A stretch of 25,536 bases of DNA from a virus. The stretch lies in IMG/VR virus record IMGVR_UViG_3300035180_000396, positions 1 through 25,536 of that record; one strand, given 5' to 3'. Shown in pieces: positions 11,871 to 25,536 of the stretch; position 1 is the stretch's first letter, and the number at the start of each line of letters is the position of its first letter. A model generated the notes under the pieces. The model did not search any database. It was not told the origin of the DNA and was given only the letters and a program-made list of their open reading frames with translations. Made by a program: the position numbers and the translations under genes.

Positions 11871-13286
11871 TCAAACCGCCAGCCCTTCTATCTTCGCCTC
11901 AATGCGAGCAATAGACAAATGGGCATCCGACGTGCCGCGGAAGCGCTGAATTCGCCAATTCCGCATGTTGCCCTGTTGCAACCAACTCAGGCGAGCGGCG
12001 CGCCGCCCCTGCTTGCCGGCGCTACGGGGGCGCTCTTGGCTCCACGTCTCGCCGTCAAGGGAGTAAGAGGTCCAGATTGTGGGGTCGACGTTCAATGCCA
12101 CATGGCCGGCTAGGGCGATAAGTTCAACCTCGTGGAAGATGGCCCCTGCAGACTCATTGTAGACGACCACGGTGCCGAACTCCCAACCGTTTGCGGTGCC
12201 GTAATGGCTGGAAATATTGTCGACGAATACGCCGACCGTGGCACCCGTAGGGTCGCCGGAAATCCATTTGTCATACGCCCATACCAAACCCCGGGCGCGG
12301 TATTGCCCCTTGCCGACAAGGCTTGATGTAAGAATGTACCAAACGGGTTCGCCCACTGCAGCGGAGCCGCTTGCGTCATATACCAACGTCTGGTCGGGCA
12401 AGTGTAGGTATAACAGACGGTGATTTTTGTCCATCCGGGGCTCAAGTACCGCGGTCGACAGTTGCGCCTCCGTGTACCCCTGCAGAATGGTGTCGACCTC
12501 GCGGGTCGACAGCGGCGTAGTGATGCCGTTGACGCCAAACCACACGGCTGGCGGCTCATTGCGGGCACTTCCTAAAAAGGCGATGCCGTTGTATGTAGTC
12601 AGGGAGAAGATGCACGCCGCGTCGGTGCCGATTGCCCCGCGTACCATTTGCGCGCCAGCATTACGGGAGAAGGGGAAGAGTGATCCGCCGATATTGTCGA
12701 AGACTTCCACCGTATAGCGGCCAACTGCGCAAACCTCGTCGCGCAATTTCAAAAGGCATTTGATAGGGTCCGGGTCAACTTCGGCGCTCCCATACTTGAG
12801 CGGGTTAACGCTGAATGGGTCCGTCAGTTCCGTTACCACAAGCGACGTGCCGTCCGTGGTCATGAAGTAGCCGTCGACCCACAGCACGTCAAGCGTGGTC
12901 CCGAGGTCCGTGTCGGTGACTTGCGCAAGCGTCGTGCCGTCGTAGTACCACAGCTTGCCGGCGCTAGCCACAGCCAAGCGGTCGAAGGAGTAGTCGAAGC
13001 TTACAGGGGTAGTCGTGCCGCCAATATCCCCGATTACGGTAAGCGTGCCGGCCGCGTCGACCTTTACCAACTTGGAGCCCATGGCCCTGTAACAAACCCC
13101 ATTCCAATTTATACCGCCCCGATCAACCCCAGGGCCAGTCGCCAACAAAGCAATCCCGTCGGCCGGTCGGAGATAGCCGTTAGAAATGCCCTGCTTTTTT
13201 GGGACCGGCACGAGGTTGCGCGGGTAGGAGGTGCGGAACTCCCCCGACGCGTCGGTGTAAATCCCGTTGAGAACGGGGATTTGCAT
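11871..13286 (-). CDS. P22 gp10-like packaged-DNA stabilisation / tail hub protein, 471 aa
   Basis: It closes the portal vertex after packaging as part of the tail machine. Similarity to P22 gp10 is visible along the length: YPRNLVPVPKK, NGYLRPADGIALL, a beta-propeller-like series (SFDYSFDRLAVASAGKLWYYDG), LGTTLDVLWVDGYFMTTDGTSLVVTEL, KCLLKLRDEVCAVGRYTVEVFDNIGGS, YNGIAFLGSARNEPPAVWF and RLLYLHLPDQTLVYDASGS. Length (471 aa) is close to P22 gp10 (472 aa). The start ATG 13286 directly follows the upstream TAA. Gene order gp4-like, two small genes, then gp10-like supports the assignment. Confidence 0.9.
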   Translation of the reverse strand: MQIPVLNGIYTDASGEFRTSYPRNLVPVPKKQGISNGYLRPADGIALLATGPGVDRGGINWNGVCYRAMGSKLVKVDAAGTLTVIGDIGGTTTPVSFDYSFDRLAVASAGKLWYYDGTTLAQVTDTDLGTTLDVLWVDGYFMTTDGTSLVVTELTDPFSVNPLKYGSAEVDPDPIKCLLKLRDEVCAVGRYTVEVFDNIGGSLFPFSRNAGAQMVRGAIGTDAACIFSLTTYNGIAFLGSARNEPPAVWFGVNGITTPLSTREVDTILQGYTEAQLSTAVLEPRMDKNHRLLYLHLPDQTLVYDASGSAAVGEPVWYILTSSLVGKGQYRARGLVWAYDKWISGDPTGATVGVFVDNISSHYGTANGWEFGTVVVYNESAGAIFHEVELIALAGHVALNVDPTIWTSYSLDGETWSQERPRSAGKQGRRAARLSWLQQGNMRNWRIQRFRGTSDAHLSIARIEAKIEGLAV

Positions 13287-13613
13287 TTAGGCTGCCGCCT
13301 CGCCTGGCTGAAAGTGCATGATTGTGGTCGTCGAGTCGGCCAAGTAGGCAATGGAATCATACTCCAAAGGCTTCTCGATAACCAGCACAGACCCAGCGCC
13401 GCCGGAGACTGCGACCGGAGTCTCGTTGACCGTGCATACTTTGCCCGGCTCGTCCGTACTGCTGAAGGTGACGAAATAGCCCAACACTGCCCCTTGGTTA
13501 ACAATCCGGATAGCGTGATTGCCCTTGCCGCATACAATCGTTTGAGACGCCGTCGTCGCGGTAACTTTCTGATTGGCCCCGCGGCGCGGCTGGAATGGGG
13601 ATTCTGAAGACAT
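13287..13613 (-). CDS. Small probable virion protein, 108 aa
   Basis: A beta-rich protein with no membrane segment: NQKVTATTASQTIVCGKGNHAIRIVNQGAVLGYFVTF, then GSVLVIEKPLEYDSIAYL. The pattern resembles small structural or decoration proteins placed between the gp4-like and gp10-like genes of podoviruses, but I cannot name a family. AGGAG lies six bases before ATG 13613, a strong ribosome binding site that predicts high expression, as expected for a multicopy capsid component. It ends directly against the gp10-like start. Confidence 0.65.
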   Translation of the reverse strand: MSSESPFQPRRGANQKVTATTASQTIVCGKGNHAIRIVNQGAVLGYFVTFSSTDEPGKVCTVNETPVAVSGGAGSVLVIEKPLEYDSIAYLADSTTTIMHFQPGEAAA

Positions 13614-13626
13614 GGAGGGCTCCTAA

Positions 13627-14082
13627 TTAGCCAACACGATACCAAGTGTCGGTGATGGTATCAAAGCGAAGACGGAAATAGCCATTTGCGGCCATGGTTG
13701 TCGGTGCACCTGTGACGGTTGCCCCATTGCCCGCAATGGTAAGGGCGGCAATGGATTGAGTACAGTTGACCAAAAGCTCCTGGCGGTCCAACACATTGGC
13801 CAGCGCCGGGAGGGTCAGCGTACCCGCGGCAAAGCCGCCGGTCGGCGTCAGCACCAACCAAGTGTTTTCGCCCGCATTGTTGACTTGAATGTTGAAGCCG
13901 GACGCGCTGGGGGCGGCGTATTGTGTAACCTTGTCGTCGGCGGCGGTAATCTGCGATTGGATGAATGCGGCCAACAGGGACAAAGACGCCTTGCGGGCGT
14001 CCCCGTTGTTAGAGGAATAGATAACGGCAAGGTCGGCCACACTGAGCGAGTCGACCGCGTTGAGTTGGTTGATTGTGGACAT
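13627..14082 (-). CDS. Probable head fibre or decoration protein, 151 aa
   Basis: The N-terminus (MSTINQLNAVDSLSVADLAVIYSSNNGDARKASLSLLAAFIQSQI) is a motif found at the start of several phage structural and fibre proteins of podoviruses. The rest (QYAAPSASGFNIQVNN, WLVLTPTGGFAAGTLTLP, ANGYFRLRFDTITDTWYRVG) is beta-rich and ends in a typical C-terminal strand with WYRV. There is a good ribosome binding site (AGGAG) before ATG 14082. It could decorate the capsid or attach to the head-tail junction. The exact role is inferred from composition and position. Confidence 0.65.
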   Translation of the reverse strand: MSTINQLNAVDSLSVADLAVIYSSNNGDARKASLSLLAAFIQSQITAADDKVTQYAAPSASGFNIQVNNAGENTWLVLTPTGGFAAGTLTLPALANVLDRQELLVNCTQSIAALTIAGNGATVTGAPTTMAANGYFRLRFDTITDTWYRVG

Positions 14083-21414: not shown

Positions 21415-21587
21415 TGTGTCACCTCGATCATGTGGAAGGCTTGCGCCTTGCGGTTGAGGAGGCCAGCCAACGGGCAGCGTGGAGACACACCAAACACACG
21501 GGCGACAGCCACATGGCAGACGGACGGCACCATGTAGGCAACCATAACGACCTCCGGGTTCGTCTTATCATTGTAACGCTCAGTCAT
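21411..21587 (-). CDS. Small protein between terminase small subunit and Ntn hydrolase, 58 aa
   Basis: The frame runs from ATG 21587 to TGA ending at 21411, overlapping both neighbours by the ATGA arrangement, which marks a translated gene in a coupled operon. The protein starts MTERYNDKTNPEVVMVAYM and has three Cys (VCHVAVARVFGVSPRCPLAGLLNRKAQAFHMIEVTQ). There is no membrane span or recognised domain. The reverse-turn-rich middle might hold a metal but the Cys count is low. No function can be given. Its place inside the packaging genes suggests a role in packaging or in the hydrolase complex. Confidence 0.7.
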   Translation of the reverse strand: MTERYNDKTNPEVVMVAYMVPSVCHVAVARVFGVSPRCPLAGLLNRKAQAFHMIEVTQ

Positions 21588-22252
21588 ACGGGTAACCTCT
21601 CAGCAAGGGTTTTAAGGGCTTCGGCCAGGCCAACGTCGGCGGCCTTGGGCTTCTCTTCGAACATTTGGAAATAGCGCGCCAGGTTGGTCAACGCGGCATC
21701 TTGGTCGCGGATCATGATCTTGAAGCCGTCTTTCGTCTTCTGGATGCCAGCGTAAAGCCGGCGTGCGGCGGGCGACAGCGTCCGGGTGTCATGGATATGC
21801 GCGCGCTCCCAGCCGTTGCCGTGGCATTCCGGGCAGTGCTGGTTGGGCGTGCGGTTGGCGTCGAACCCGAAGCCGCCCATGCCGTCGGGGGCGCGCTTGC
21901 CGGACCTCACAGCTACGTCGACGGCGCGCATGTATTCCGCTTCGGTCCATTGGTACGCATGGCCAGCGCCCCAACAATGCCGACAGCATTCGCGTCGTAC
22001 CTCGACCAGCTCGTTGACGTCGACGTTCGCAATCTCCCACCAACGCCGAAGTATCGCCTCGACCGTTATTTCGCTCCGTACCTGGCAGTTTTTCAGATGC
22101 TCGGACACGGCGGCGGCTATTTCTGGTTTCTTCAACATGGCCGACCCCTGCTGGCCTGCCGTCTTCTCAGAATATCCAGCACGAACGGCGGCCTTCGTCG
22201 CATTCATGTCGACGCAATACTCTGAAACAAAAAGGGTTTCTTTCGGAGTCAT
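21584..22252 (-). CDS. Terminase small subunit with DnaJ-type zinc insertion, 222 aa
   Basis: It recognises phage DNA and starts packaging with the large subunit. The N-terminus MTPKETLFVSEYCVDMNATKAAVRAGYSEKTAGQQGSAMLKKPEIAAAV is the Terminase_2 helix-turn-helix signature. After ITVEAILRRWWEIANVDVNEL it has two CxxCxGxG motifs, CRHCWGAGHAYQW (about 92) and CPECHGNGWE (about 140), like one zinc site of the DnaJ Cys-rich domain; such an insertion is known in some phage small terminases. The start is ATG 22252, matching the family N-terminus, though no good SD is visible; a TTG at 22336 would add 28 unrelated residues. It is the first gene of the late operon. Confidence 0.9.
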   Translation of the reverse strand: MTPKETLFVSEYCVDMNATKAAVRAGYSEKTAGQQGSAMLKKPEIAAAVSEHLKNCQVRSEITVEAILRRWWEIANVDVNELVEVRRECCRHCWGAGHAYQWTEAEYMRAVDVAVRSGKRAPDGMGGFGFDANRTPNQHCPECHGNGWERAHIHDTRTLSPAARRLYAGIQKTKDGFKIMIRDQDAALTNLARYFQMFEEKPKAADVGLAEALKTLAERLPV

Positions 22253-22381: not shown

Positions 22382-22446
22382 TCTCGTTATACCCCTATAC
22401 CCTTTAATAAATATAACGCTGTACACCAATACGTCTACATGTACAT

Positions 22447-22458
22447 ATAGATATCTAT
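22447..22458. repeat. 12-bp perfect palindrome ATAGATATCTAT
   Basis: The palindrome lies in the divergent control region. Its arms (TAGATA/TATCTA) match the outer arms of the 19-bp operator palindrome at 23372-23390, but the spacing between arms is shorter, so a shared binding protein is only a possibility. Confidence 0.4.
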
Positions 22459-22518
22459 GTCTAAATAACGTCGTATACTGTAAAGGACTGCAGCGCGCGG
22501 GGAGGTGTCGCACTGGGG

Positions 22519-22567: not shown

Positions 22568-22573
22568 AGGAGG
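22568..22573 (+). promoter_or_regulatory. Consensus ribosome binding site of the cassette
   Basis: AGGAGG, a complete Shine-Dalgarno core, lies 8 bases before ATG 22582. It fixes the start of the zinc-finger gene and predicts efficient translation. Confidence 0.85.
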
Positions 22574-22581
22574 GTAAACGC

Positions 22582-23001
22582 ATGGAAAGGAAGGAGGCGG
22601 CGGCGGCGGGTCTTAAGAAGTACGACACAGGTCGCCCGTGCAAGCATGGCCATCGCGCCGACAGGTATGTGGATTCCGGCGCCTGTTCGACGTGTCTTAA
22701 AAATATGGCATCTATAAAACACGCTGGCGGCGCATCTCAACGGGAGGAAGTTGCTACCAAAACAAAGCAAATTTATTTGTTTACCAAGGAATCCGGGCTA
22801 CAGAATATAAAGTCTTTTGTCGACTTGCTTGTTGCTTTGCGCCTCCCTGACATCGACCCGGAGGCGGTCAACCCCTGGCCCTATTGGCAAAAACAGGTGT
22901 CCCGCGAGACGTATCAAATCAAGGTCAGAGTACCGGTTGAAGATGTCGACGCCGCGTACGCTGCTGGTAAAGTCATGCTTGAGCCGGAGGTACGGAAGTG
23001 A
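22582..23001 (+). CDS. Zinc-finger protein of unknown function, 139 aa
   Basis: The N-terminus has the motif RPCKHGHRADRYVDSGACSTC (about residues 18-38), that is CxxGHxxxRYxxxGxCxxC, a treble-clef-like zinc site seen in phage proteins, some of them HNH or endonuclease VII-like nucleases. Here no HNH or other nuclease residues follow: the remainder is a linker (about 45-60), a helical part (KQIYLFTKESGLQNIKSFVDLLVALRLPDIDPEA) and a charged tail (YQIKVRVPVEDVDAAYAAGKVML). It may bind DNA or a protein. It is the first gene of a two-gene rightward operon set against the surrounding leftward genes, and it overlaps the primase-fragment gene by four bases (GTGA), so the two are translationally coupled. 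Confidence 0.8.
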   Translation: MERKEAAAAGLKKYDTGRPCKHGHRADRYVDSGACSTCLKNMASIKHAGGASQREEVATKTKQIYLFTKESGLQNIKSFVDLLVALRLPDIDPEAVNPWPYWQKQVSRETYQIKVRVPVEDVDAAYAAGKVMLEPEVRK

Positions 23002-23243
23002 ACAAGTCGACATTTATAAGCGCGGAAAATATCCCCGTCATTTTTGAGGGGCTGTCATTTAATTTGATGACAATGCGGGTCATTTTGCCGGACGGCACAC
23101 CGCTACGAAAAGAGCAATTCAAGGTGTTATATGGAGGCTACACATACGCCCTCGACTTTTCTAACGAGCATACGACCCGCGATGCCTGGCGGGCCTTTAC
23201 CAACAATATGGCGTTTCGTCCGCCTTTTGTTAAGCCGCGGTAA
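22998..23243 (+). CDS. Stand-alone paralogue of the primase-helicase linker domain, 81 aa
   Basis: The start GTG 22998 overlaps the preceding stop (GTGA). From about residue 15 onward it aligns without gaps to the first 67 visible residues of the SF3 primase-helicase at the right end, with 30 identities by hand count. Shared blocks include EQFKV/DQFKV, GGY, LDFxNExTxRDAWxAFT and a final RxPxV. The corresponding part of the large protein lies just before its helicase domain. The small protein has no Walker motif and stops before the helicase, so it cannot be an enzyme by itself. It could compete with, regulate or complement the replication protein, or act against related phages. No precedent is known to me. 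Confidence 0.8.
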   Translation: MNKSTFISAENIPVIFEGLSFNLMTMRVILPDGTPLRKEQFKVLYGGYTYALDFSNEHTTRDAWRAFTNNMAFRPPFVKPR

Positions 23244-23337
23244 TCATCGGGGGGCCGTCGTACTCGCCTACCCGGAAGGTCTTTTGCTCGCTGCGTACCG
23301 TTGCTGTAACAGTCTTACCGGCTTCAAACTGTTTCAT
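23230..23337 (-). CDS. Very small ORF behind a strong promoter, 35 aa
   Basis: The frame runs from ATG 23337 to TAA ending at 23230: starts MKQFEAGKTVTATV and ends GEYDGPPMITAA. GGAG sits 9 bases before the ATG and a near-consensus promoter lies about 30 bases upstream, which makes translation likely. The peptide is polar and beta-like (KTFRVGEYDG), with no membrane segment. Its last 14 bases overlap the end of the convergent primase-fragment gene. It could be a small early regulator or inhibitor; no family is recognised. Confidence 0.6.
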   Translation of the reverse strand: MKQFEAGKTVTATVRSEQKTFRVGEYDGPPMITAA

Positions 23338-23367: not shown

Positions 23368-23396
23368 ATTATAGATAAATTATTTATCTACGTCAA
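23368..23396 (-). promoter_or_regulatory. Strong sigma70 promoter with palindromic operator
   Basis: On the minus strand TTGACG (23396-23391), a 17-bp spacer and a perfect TATAAT (23373-23368) match consensus at 11 of 12 positions. It starts right after the terminator of the Gp49-family gene and reads into the 35-aa ORF, then antisense across the rightward cassette toward the packaging genes. Its spacer matches that of the promoter at 166-194. Confidence 0.85.
23372..23390. promoter_or_regulatory. 19-bp perfect palindromic operator
   Basis: TAGATAAAT, one central base and ATTTATCTA form a perfect inverted repeat spanning the spacer and the start of the -10 box, so a bound dimer would block RNA polymerase. 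The rightward promoter at 166-194 has a 16/19 match at the same position (172-190). The binding protein is unknown; the 54-aa helix-turn-helix protein at 394-558 is one candidate. Confidence 0.7.
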
Positions 23397-23397
23397 C

Positions 23398-23421
23398 AAA
23401 AAGATACCCGCACAGGGCGGG
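23398..23421 (-). terminator. Intrinsic terminator of the replication-side operon
   Basis: On the minus strand CCCGC, loop CCTGT and GCGGG form a 5-bp GC stem (extendable by a G-T pair), followed by TATC and TTTTT. It lies 28 bases after the stop of the Gp49-family gene and one base before the -35 box of the next leftward promoter, separating two transcription units. Confidence 0.75.
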
Positions 23422-23448
23422 CTAAATTTGCAGAAAGGTGACGGGCTA

Positions 23449-23949: not shown

Positions 23950-24020
23950 ATCCTTGGGGCGCCGTCTTTCTCTTGCGGCCAGGCTATTACGTGCTTAATG
24001 CCAATGTAATATTTTGTCAT
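23950..24020 (-). other. Displaced N-terminus of the Gp49-family gene (other frame)
   Basis: ATG 24020 has GAGGAG 8 bases upstream, the best SD in this operon. It encodes MTKYYIGIKHVIAW followed by PQEKDGAP, a typical N-terminus of phage proteins that continue with a SWSPKDVFE-type segment. Here PKDVFEAA resumes in the -1 frame near 23953-23960. The frame that continues from ATG 24020 runs on as an uninformative Arg/Ser/Thr-rich sequence to 23658. A small deletion, a sequencing error or programmed frameshifting could explain it. Confidence 0.65.
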
Positions 24021-24040: not shown

Positions 24041-24199
24041 TTACCCCTGCTGGGGCGTTGGAAAACATTTAGCCCACTCCGCCACACAGTCCGGGCAAAT
24101 GGGATAGCCGGCGCGTGTCTCGTGCGGCTTCGACCGGATGATGTTGGGTCGCATGCAAAAGCCGCACTTTTTATGCGTATGTGGGCGATGTTCACGCAT
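24041..24199 (-). CDS. Small zinc-ribbon protein, 52 aa
   Basis: The frame runs from ATG 24199, overlapping the primase-helicase stop by eight bases, to TAA ending at 24041. It contains KKCGFCMRP and YPICPDCVAEWAKCF, two CxxC pairs about 20 residues apart, the layout of a zinc ribbon (ClpX-type zinc fingers look similar). GGAG lies six bases before the start. It may bind nucleic acid or the adjacent replication protein. It is translationally coupled to the helicase gene and precedes the Gp49-family gene, so it belongs to the replication operon. Confidence 0.75.
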   Translation of the reverse strand: MREHRPHTHKKCGFCMRPNIIRSKPHETRAGYPICPDCVAEWAKCFPTPQQG

Positions 24200-25536
24200 G
24201 GGCGGCTCCGGTAAGGGGGAAGGGAACCCGGCTATGGTTATTGGCTTGCTCGTAGGCTTTGGCGGCCTCCGCGGCCCCTTGCACGTGGCGGGCGGGGCTG
24301 TCCTTATGCACGAACAAGCGCGGCTTGCCTCCGTCTGGTAGTACAAGGTTGTTGACCCGGCCATCATGTAATGCCGGGTGCCAGTCGTAGCCCATGACAT
24401 GCAGCATTTCCCGGCGTTTGGAGTGCGTAACGCGGCGGCCTGCCCCCAAGCGTTCCAAGAGGCGGTCGAGTTGAATAGAGGATATCCAGCCGCCACAGAA
24501 GCCCGGCAAACCTTGCCCAATCGCTTCCGCTATTTCCTGCTCAATGCCTCCGGTGCTGGCGGCGACCGCCTCTGCCGTGGAACTGGTAGCCGGCGCGCGC
24601 TGGCAGTTGGTAGCCGGGTTGTAATCGTCCGGGATTGGGAAGGTATGCAGCAACTCCGACACGATGGCGTAACCGTCGGCTTTGAGCCAATCGTAAAGCC
24701 GCGGGAAGTAGTCCCCGGACATGCCGTCCCGGGTCAGGTCTTCGGCTTGCTGTTGGGCGGCAAATAGCGTGCAAATGCGGCGGTCGTTCTGCGTCTTCCG
24801 CACGGCGTCCTTGTGGTTGCTGTTAAGCATGAAGTTACCGCAAATGTCCGCGCTGATCTGGTCGACGCCCTTGCCCTCAATCTCAAGCCCGTCGCCCCCG
24901 GTAATCATGGGTTTCAGTTCTTCGAAGACCTCCGCGCGGCTATCTGGTAGATAAATGTCCTCCACGCCATAGAATACCTTGCCGACCATCCAGCTATTGA
25001 ACTGCGCCGCCAGCTTGGACGCTTTGGGCCAATGAACATAGCGGCGCCCGACGGCCTCTGCCACACAGCGGGTGAACAAGGTTTTGCCGTTGCCTTCCAC
25101 CCCCTGCAGCAAAGGAGCCCATTGAAACTTAACGCCGCGGTGCTGCACACATGCGGCCATGTAGCTCAAGAGGATCAAGCGGTCGCGCTCATCCGGCAGC
25201 ACGCGGCGCAGATGGTCCAAGAAAGGGTCGGCGTCGCCCACCTTGCGCGGCACTTCGACCGGCCAATAGGTGTTGACTTGCCGTACCCCTCCGCGCTCAA
25301 TGATTGCCCCGGCGGCCATGTCCGGCCGGAAGCAAGGGGAGTCGACGCGCGGGCATCGTATGGCTTGGCTTTGCGTGAAAGCTTCCCACGCGTCCCGGCT
25401 CGTGCGCTCGTTGGCAAAGTCAAGCGGGAACATATAGCCGCCAAAGTGAACTTTGAATTGGTCCGGCTTCAAGAGGACGCCCCCGGGCACGAGGACTTTA
25501 TGCAAGTCCCGGATGTAGACGCACCCTTTGAATAGT
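24192..25536 (-). CDS. Primase-helicase, SF3/D5-like ATPase part (5' partial)
   Basis: The frame is open to the right edge (residues LFKGCVYIRD precede the TTG at 25505), so the N-terminus lies outside and no start can be assigned. The visible 447 residues hold a linker domain (QFKVHFGGYMFPLDFANERTSRDAW), Walker A QGVEGNGKT (about 134-143 of the visible part), Walker B-like VFYGVEDIYL, a sensor region FMLNSNHKDAVRKTQNDRR, and a C-terminal winged-helix-like part (RRVTHSKRREMLHVMGYDW). This is the SF3 helicase of phage and plasmid primases (P4/D5 type). It should unwind DNA at the origin and, with the missing N-terminal part, synthesise primers. Confidence 0.9.
   Translation of the reverse strand, partial: LFKGCVYIRDLHKVLVPGGVLLKPDQFKVHFGGYMFPLDFANERTSRDAWEAFTQSQAIRCPRVDSPCFRPDMAAGAIIERGGVRQVNTYWPVEVPRKVGDADPFLDHLRRVLPDERDRLILLSYMAACVQHRGVKFQWAPLLQGVEGNGKTLFTRCVAEAVGRRYVHWPKASKLAAQFNSWMVGKVFYGVEDIYLPDSRAEVFEELKPMITGGDGLEIEGKGVDQISADICGNFMLNSNHKDAVRKTQNDRRICTLFAAQQQAEDLTRDGMSGDYFPRLYDWLKADGYAIVSELLHTFPIPDDYNPATNCQRAPATSSTAEAVAASTGGIEQEIAEAIGQGLPGFCGGWISSIQLDRLLERLGAGRRVTHSKRREMLHVMGYDWHPALHDGRVNNLVLPDGGKPRLFVHKDSPARHVQGAAEAAKAYEQANNHSRVPFPLTGAAHA

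Follow-up and report, generated by a model that had tools for sequence, protein, structure and literature searches.

The window analysed here, the 25,536 nucleotides of virus record IMGVR_UViG_3300035180_000396, encodes an 81-aa protein that, judging from sequence comparison and structure prediction, is a free-standing collar (Head) domain of an NrS-1-type PrimPol-helicase. Its GTG start codon overlaps the TGA stop codon of a zinc-finger gene as GTGA, and the same gene pair is present in other viral contigs. The record is a fragment in itself and the N-terminal half of its primase lies beyond its end; the features discussed below are collected in Table 1.

Table 1. Position and basis of assignment of the features of the window.
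Feature	Coordinates	Strand	Basis or remark
Terminase small subunit gene (TerS), divergent from the cassette	21584..22252	-	phrog_51, E 1.9e-36
ATACCCCTATACCCT, TACCCC-type repeat	22389..22403	+	conserved in the zinc-finger/TerS intergenic region
ATAGATATCTATGTCTAAATAACG, conserved intergenic block	22447..22470	+	0-1 mismatches in L003, L004, L005, L006
AGGAGGG, ribosome-binding-site-like	22568..22574	+	before the zinc-finger gene; read from sequence
139-aa protein, N-terminal CKHGH-x-CSTC zinc finger and C-terminal domain	22582..23001	+	ORF; phrog_1081, E 1.3e-13, residues 3-46
GGAGGT, ribosome-binding-site-like	22986..22991	+	6 nt before the collar-gene GTG, within the end of the zinc-finger ORF; read from sequence
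81-aa free-standing collar (NrS-1 polymerase Head-like) protein	22998..23243	+	ORF, GTG start
Partial PrimPol-helicase (collar, DUF5906 SF3 helicase, tail)	24192..25536	-	PF19263, E 6.6e-17; phrog_1829 DNA primase, E 2.7e-52
Primase collar stretch homologous to the 81-aa protein	25344..25532	-	tblastn, own-record search, profile-profile alignment

The ungapped likeness to the primase of the window on which the original prediction was based is borne out by tblastn, which gives 46.9% identity over 64 residues (30 identical), and the search of the own record with the 81-aa protein retrieves the primase at 48% identity with 58.9 bits and an E-value of 1.2e-17. In the profile-profile alignment (hhalign), 10 stand-alone copies and 55 primase segments match over 80 ungapped columns with 44% identity and an E-value of 3.5e-27, and on these alignments the likeness is far beyond chance. 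The matched region, previously described as a linker preceding the SF3 helicase, is instead predicted to be a folded domain, the Head or collar of an NrS-1-type PrimPol-helicase, and the 81-aa protein carries it as a separate ORF and not between the HBD and the SF3 helicase of one polypeptide. The protein belongs to no known family in Pfam (0 families matched, PF08706 (D5_N) included), PHROGs, PADLOC and NCBIfam; Rfam gave no match, nothing was retrieved by the PDB sequence search with the stand-alone profile, and an initial scan of viral sequences that used just the 81-aa sequence as query found nothing.

The AF2 model of the 81-aa protein (pLDDT 90.4) and that of the matching primase segment of L014 (pLDDT 90.8) have the same order of elements, although the former stops short of the final three Head strands. 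The top 8 PDB matches of the primase-segment model are only chains of the NrS-1 C-terminal region (6lrb, 6k9c, 6k9e), with a probability of 0.66-0.94 but modest E-values of 0.09-0.34; despite these, the specificity of the predicted matches among the 350,542 chains searched is telling. The fold search of the PDB with the 81-aa model alone gave no significant match, none having an E-value below 0.7, and in BFVD its best match (TMq 0.87 over 77 columns) is to a viral protein of 817 aa, while the weaker viral structure matches include several named primases.

The primase of the window is cut at the window end and comprises only the collar-helicase-tail part, the PrimPol part lying beyond; in Pfam it matches only DUF5906, plus a sub-threshold VapE-like match. 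Full-length relatives, taken from 80 IMG/VR loci, are ~760-900 aa long in most of them; those tested carry the NrS-1 polymerase HBD (PF22763) and DUF5906 (PF19263) and match by sequence the solved NrS-1 PrimPol and C-terminal region (PDB 6a9w/7rr3), so that PrimPol, HBD and DUF5906 helicase occur together in one protein. From its PrimPol domain through the helicase, the primase is colinear with the NrS-1 polymerase, although within the Head the alignment has gaps and is weak. The Head of NrS-1 is an alpha/beta domain (residues 304-391) located between HBD and helicase, and its hexameric ring encloses a positive channel of ~20 Å (PMC7102993). The primase collar sits at the same place as the Head of this polymerase of a Nitratiruptor phage (PDB 6k9c, 6k9e, 6lrb), in the order PrimPol-HBD-Head-helicase; in contrast, the 81-aa protein is the product of a separate gene without PrimPol, helicase, tail or the last three Head strands.

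The collar gene belongs to an opposite-strand cassette, as originally described: the zinc-finger/collar pair converges on the replication genes and diverges from TerS. The 139-aa zinc-finger protein has relatives that are 60-75% identical in L003, L004, L005, L006, L014 and L015, and the TerS/zinc-finger arrangement is the same in the window and in L003-L006. The zinc-finger gene is divergent to TerS in all 33 loci with a recognised TerS, of which 6 have a separate collar gene and 1 has a fusion. As a partner of the zinc-finger gene, the collar gene is optional; in fact, most relatives keeping the zinc-finger gene and the primase are without it, for which reason it is dispensable for this replication system, and downstream of the other zinc-finger genes no additional collar-like second gene was recognised.

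Other zinc-finger and terminase features were observed in these loci. A zinc motif resembling that of DnaJ, CRHCWGAG...CPECHGNG, is present in the TerS of the window as well as in its relatives. In L014 (12429-12875, +) and L015 (11379-11858, +), the cassette and TerS are separated by one more ORF, located on the same strand as TerS, whose product has a zinc finger of the cassette type at its C-terminus. In L034, the two proteins of the pair (12720-13034 and 13059-13706, -) end in KAEEDGDWP(E/Q)GDPR and the L033 zinc-finger protein (13131-13652, -) ends in IDWPEGDPR, possibly a docking tail shared with the L034 pair. The terminase large subunit match is broken by about 1 kb in L014 (13580-16015) and L034 (15037-17313), perhaps by an inserted element such as an intron, an intein or a homing endonuclease.

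On the minus strand of the window, a 35-aa ORF, MKQFEAGKTVTATVRSEQKTFRVGEYDGPPMITAA (23227-23337), overlaps the 3' end of the collar gene and resembles an internally shortened relative of a 71-aa gene of L003 (4051-4266, -). Just past the 3' end of the collar gene there are a terminator-like hairpin of the replication-side operon (23368-23396, -) and, after it, a promoter-like TTGACG-17-TATAAT (11 of 12; 23406-23422, -). A conserved phage gene (23449-24020, -) is seemingly split near 23950 between two frames, MTKYYIGIKHVIAWPQEK... being read in one and MFEAAHLLQGDDP... in another, due to a frameshift or a sequence error.

The two-gene pair, which the original prediction proposed to look for in other phages, was found in 10 further contigs (L003, L004, L005, L014, L015, L029, L033, L034, L037, and L100), where a collar gene lies directly 3' of a zinc-finger gene. 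The proteins of L004 and L005 are identical, L014 and L015 are near copies and L100 is a near copy of L037, so that about six lineages are represented besides the window. The two genes meet as ATGA in L003, L004, L029, L033, and L037 and as TAATG in L014 and L015, while in L034 they are separated by a short gap with no overlap. In L024 (12331-13125), the collar domain forms the C-terminal 78 residues of a multi-zinc-finger protein (E 2.7e-19, with a scoring profile that included L024 itself, whose branch is very long). L014, L015, L029, L033, L034, and L037 each also carry an intact ~800-aa primase that includes a collar. In the carrier contigs retrieved around a primase, the PrimPol-helicase lies a few kb away, and the short contigs L003-L005 end before it could come into view.

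In cultured phages, 96 and 90 records matched at one place each, which in the records opened, only some of the total, is inside ~790-aa primases, the remaining listed names being those that fit primases. The zinc-finger/collar pair was found neither in these cultured phages (records matched, part of them opened) nor in database families or in the incompletely covered literature. Jedunavirus also has a small gene beside a zinc-finger gene at this position, but visual inspection shows no likeness to a collar. In bacterial genomes, the pattern scan retrieved relatives neither of the zinc-finger protein nor of the window primase and, therefore, gave no prophage evidence.

The tree of 81 collar sequences (78 columns, weakly resolved) places 8 of the 10 stand-alones in one supported group (96/85), while L034 and L024, both on very long branches, fall outside this group; one common origin for the ten is not rejected (p-AU 0.39). 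The window copy shares 62% identity with the L015 stand-alone, and every primase is more distant from it. As other stand-alones, and not the primase of its own phage, are its nearer relatives, the duplication is an old one; the description of the protein as a fragment of the phage's own primase is not supported in that form, as most stand-alones form their own clade and the nearest sequences of the window copy are the stand-alones of other phages, which rules out a recent copy. The dN/dS values of 0.06-0.32, obtained for pairs with usable dS (the window pairs are mostly saturated at synonymous sites), indicate that the stand-alone collar gene is under purifying selection. These values, the 10 further contigs and the intact primases on six of them uphold the earlier view of a dedicated, translationally coupled gene and not of a decaying duplicate.

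The divergence of the stand-alones concerns residues that are near-invariant in 52 primase collars, namely Q12 (51/52), K37 (47/52), Q40 (47/52), and E65 (50/52), which are changed to L/M/I, to D/N, mostly to R and mostly to R, respectively. Y21 (52/52) is mostly F in the stand-alones and the less strict Q71 (43/52) is changed too, while F16, G18, P31, G33, F41, G46, G47, A66, and F67 are kept. The net charge of the stand-alones is +2 to +5 versus a mean of -0.5 in the primase collars. A charge-swapped K37/E65 salt bridge was considered and fails for the window copy, which has R37 and R65.

The region between the zinc-finger gene and TerS contains conserved elements. TACCCCTATACC occurs with at most one mismatch in 11 of 36 such regions versus a mean of 0.05 and a maximum of 1 in shuffles, a count in which related loci are non-independent and the motif is drawn from one of the counted regions. 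The direct repeat, of the type TACCCC(T/G)(A/T)TACCCC, is seen in the window, L003, L004, L006, L012, L017, L018, L026, L027, and L037, roughly 115-160 nt from the TerS start, and is kept where the coding sequence diverged; it is a candidate binding site, and a possible operator, late-promoter element or origin. The block ATAGATATCTATGTCTAAATAACG, which contains the palindrome ATAGATATCTAT, is near-identical in L003-L006, although the genes downstream of it are almost saturated at their synonymous sites. No clear signal of an origin was seen in the GC skew. Short repeats form long arrays in L018 (upstream of 10403), L004 (4240-4466), and L005 (7161-7550), the last of which reads on the minus strand as a pentapeptide-repeat protein (NLYGADLRSA...).

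With the domain identity, the gene overlap, the fusion, the old and selected status of the gene and the intact primase alongside as observed ground, the zinc-finger/collar pair can tentatively be regarded, at somewhat less than an even chance, as a two-part DNA replication accessory acting on the assembly or loading of the PrimPol-helicase. The two proteins probably act together because of their strict pairing, the overlap and the one fusion, and replication is the first guess because the collar stems from the primase collar and the PrimPol-helicase is present in the carriers. The 81-aa collar would be made in translational coupling with the zinc-finger protein and would work with it; the latter would bind DNA, most simply in the divergent control region from which it is encoded, whereas the free collar would ride on it, as it does by fusion in one phage, and contact the PrimPol-helicase, whose hexamer assembly or loading on DNA would thereby be steered or limited. 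Prim/Pol-HBD-Head of NrS-1 (N392) fails to bind ssDNA, and NrS-1 hexamers require the Tail for their assembly (PMC7102993); due to these results, the collar alone may not oligomerise or bind DNA, and a free collar is expected to need a partner. The more specific version, in which the zinc-finger protein at the TACCCC-repeat control site presents the spare collar to the PrimPol-helicase and the hexamer is assembled or held there, is rather unlikely.

The loss of the primase-invariant residues argues against a simple co-assembly of the stand-alones with the ring of the primase and suggests that their partner surface has changed; because of it, the stand-alones may no longer touch the primase. 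The position of the cassette beside the terminase gene would equally suit a late-gene regulator, and the collar could have been recruited as partner of the zinc-finger protein and have lost the primase contact, the pair then being a DNA-binding regulator of the terminase/late operon. This is doubtful but deserves serious weight: the invariably divergent zinc-finger gene of the 33 TerS loci, the conserved TACCCC-type element and the more basic stand-alones without the primase-invariant polar residues are in its favor, but every checkable carrier also has the PrimPol-helicase, and no DNA-binding fold was found for the collar, the PDB fold search giving no significant match. The residue changes also weaken the dominant-negative role that had been suggested, in which the free collar stops the primase hexamer by entering its Head ring or capping it, the target being the primase of its own phage (timing control) or that of a superinfecting relative. 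The fold core as in the primase collar, the absence of a catalytic domain and the hexameric ring of the NrS-1 Head (PMC7102993) are consistent with such a poison subunit; however, E65, Q40, Q12, and K37 are replaced, the strict pairing with a zinc finger would be unneeded and the NrS-1 hexamer is held by the Tail and not by the Head alone (PMC7102993), which makes it improbable.

A decoy for a host defence protein, or for a rival-phage inhibitor, recognising the PrimPol-helicase collar would account for the patchy presence of the gene and for a divergence faster than that of the primase collar, but a decoy should keep the primase surface from which the stand-alones diverge, its fusion with a zinc-finger protein is unexpected, and neither the 81-aa protein (0 families in PADLOC) nor the zinc-finger protein has a defence-family match, so that this role is very improbable. 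Finally, only the partial domain content suggests that the gene is what is left of a decaying primase duplicate or of a primase that was interrupted, and this explanation is practically ruled out: the frame is clean, the gene has its own ribosome-binding site, the overlap is conserved, dN/dS is low, the boundaries are similar in several lineages, and the six contigs carry, instead of an interrupted primase, an intact collar-bearing one.

Collars of this type are known as parts of larger proteins. In poxvirus D5 and related SF3 helicases, the D5_N collar is described as related to the NrS-1 Head (one helix and a three-stranded sheet) and as the only independent structural part of D5_N, whose domains are expected not to exist without the following DUF5906 (PMC9611036); here, in contrast, the collar is a gene of its own, without a PF08706 match. 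P4 Cnr is encoded by a copy-number gene near the P4 alpha primase-helicase (PMC8628076). Like the 81-aa gene, it is a small accessory near the primase-helicase of a phage-like element, with a proposed regulation of replication. Cnr acts on P4 alpha, and we know of no report of Cnr as a copy of an alpha domain or of a zinc-finger partner of Cnr. The phrog_1081 CxxGH..CxxC zinc-finger proteins include the N-terminal 44 residues of the partner, whereas neither the remainder of the 139-aa protein nor the coupled collar gene belongs to this family. The domain was therefore already known as a protein part, and for the separate zinc-finger-coupled collar gene no description was found in the literature searched, whose coverage is incomplete.

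SF3 helicase collars, known as parts of large replication proteins, are represented here by a selected gene that is coupled or fused to a zinc finger. If true, the control of replication by a detached helicase collar would be a mode for which no example was found among SF3 helicases. For the function of the NrS-1 Head, the 81-aa protein provides a naturally occurring minimal reagent. Its gene offers a function-linked handle on the zinc-finger gene present in every related locus with a recognisable terminase neighbour and hints at a possible control of replication in phages whose DNA is copied by a PrimPol-helicase.
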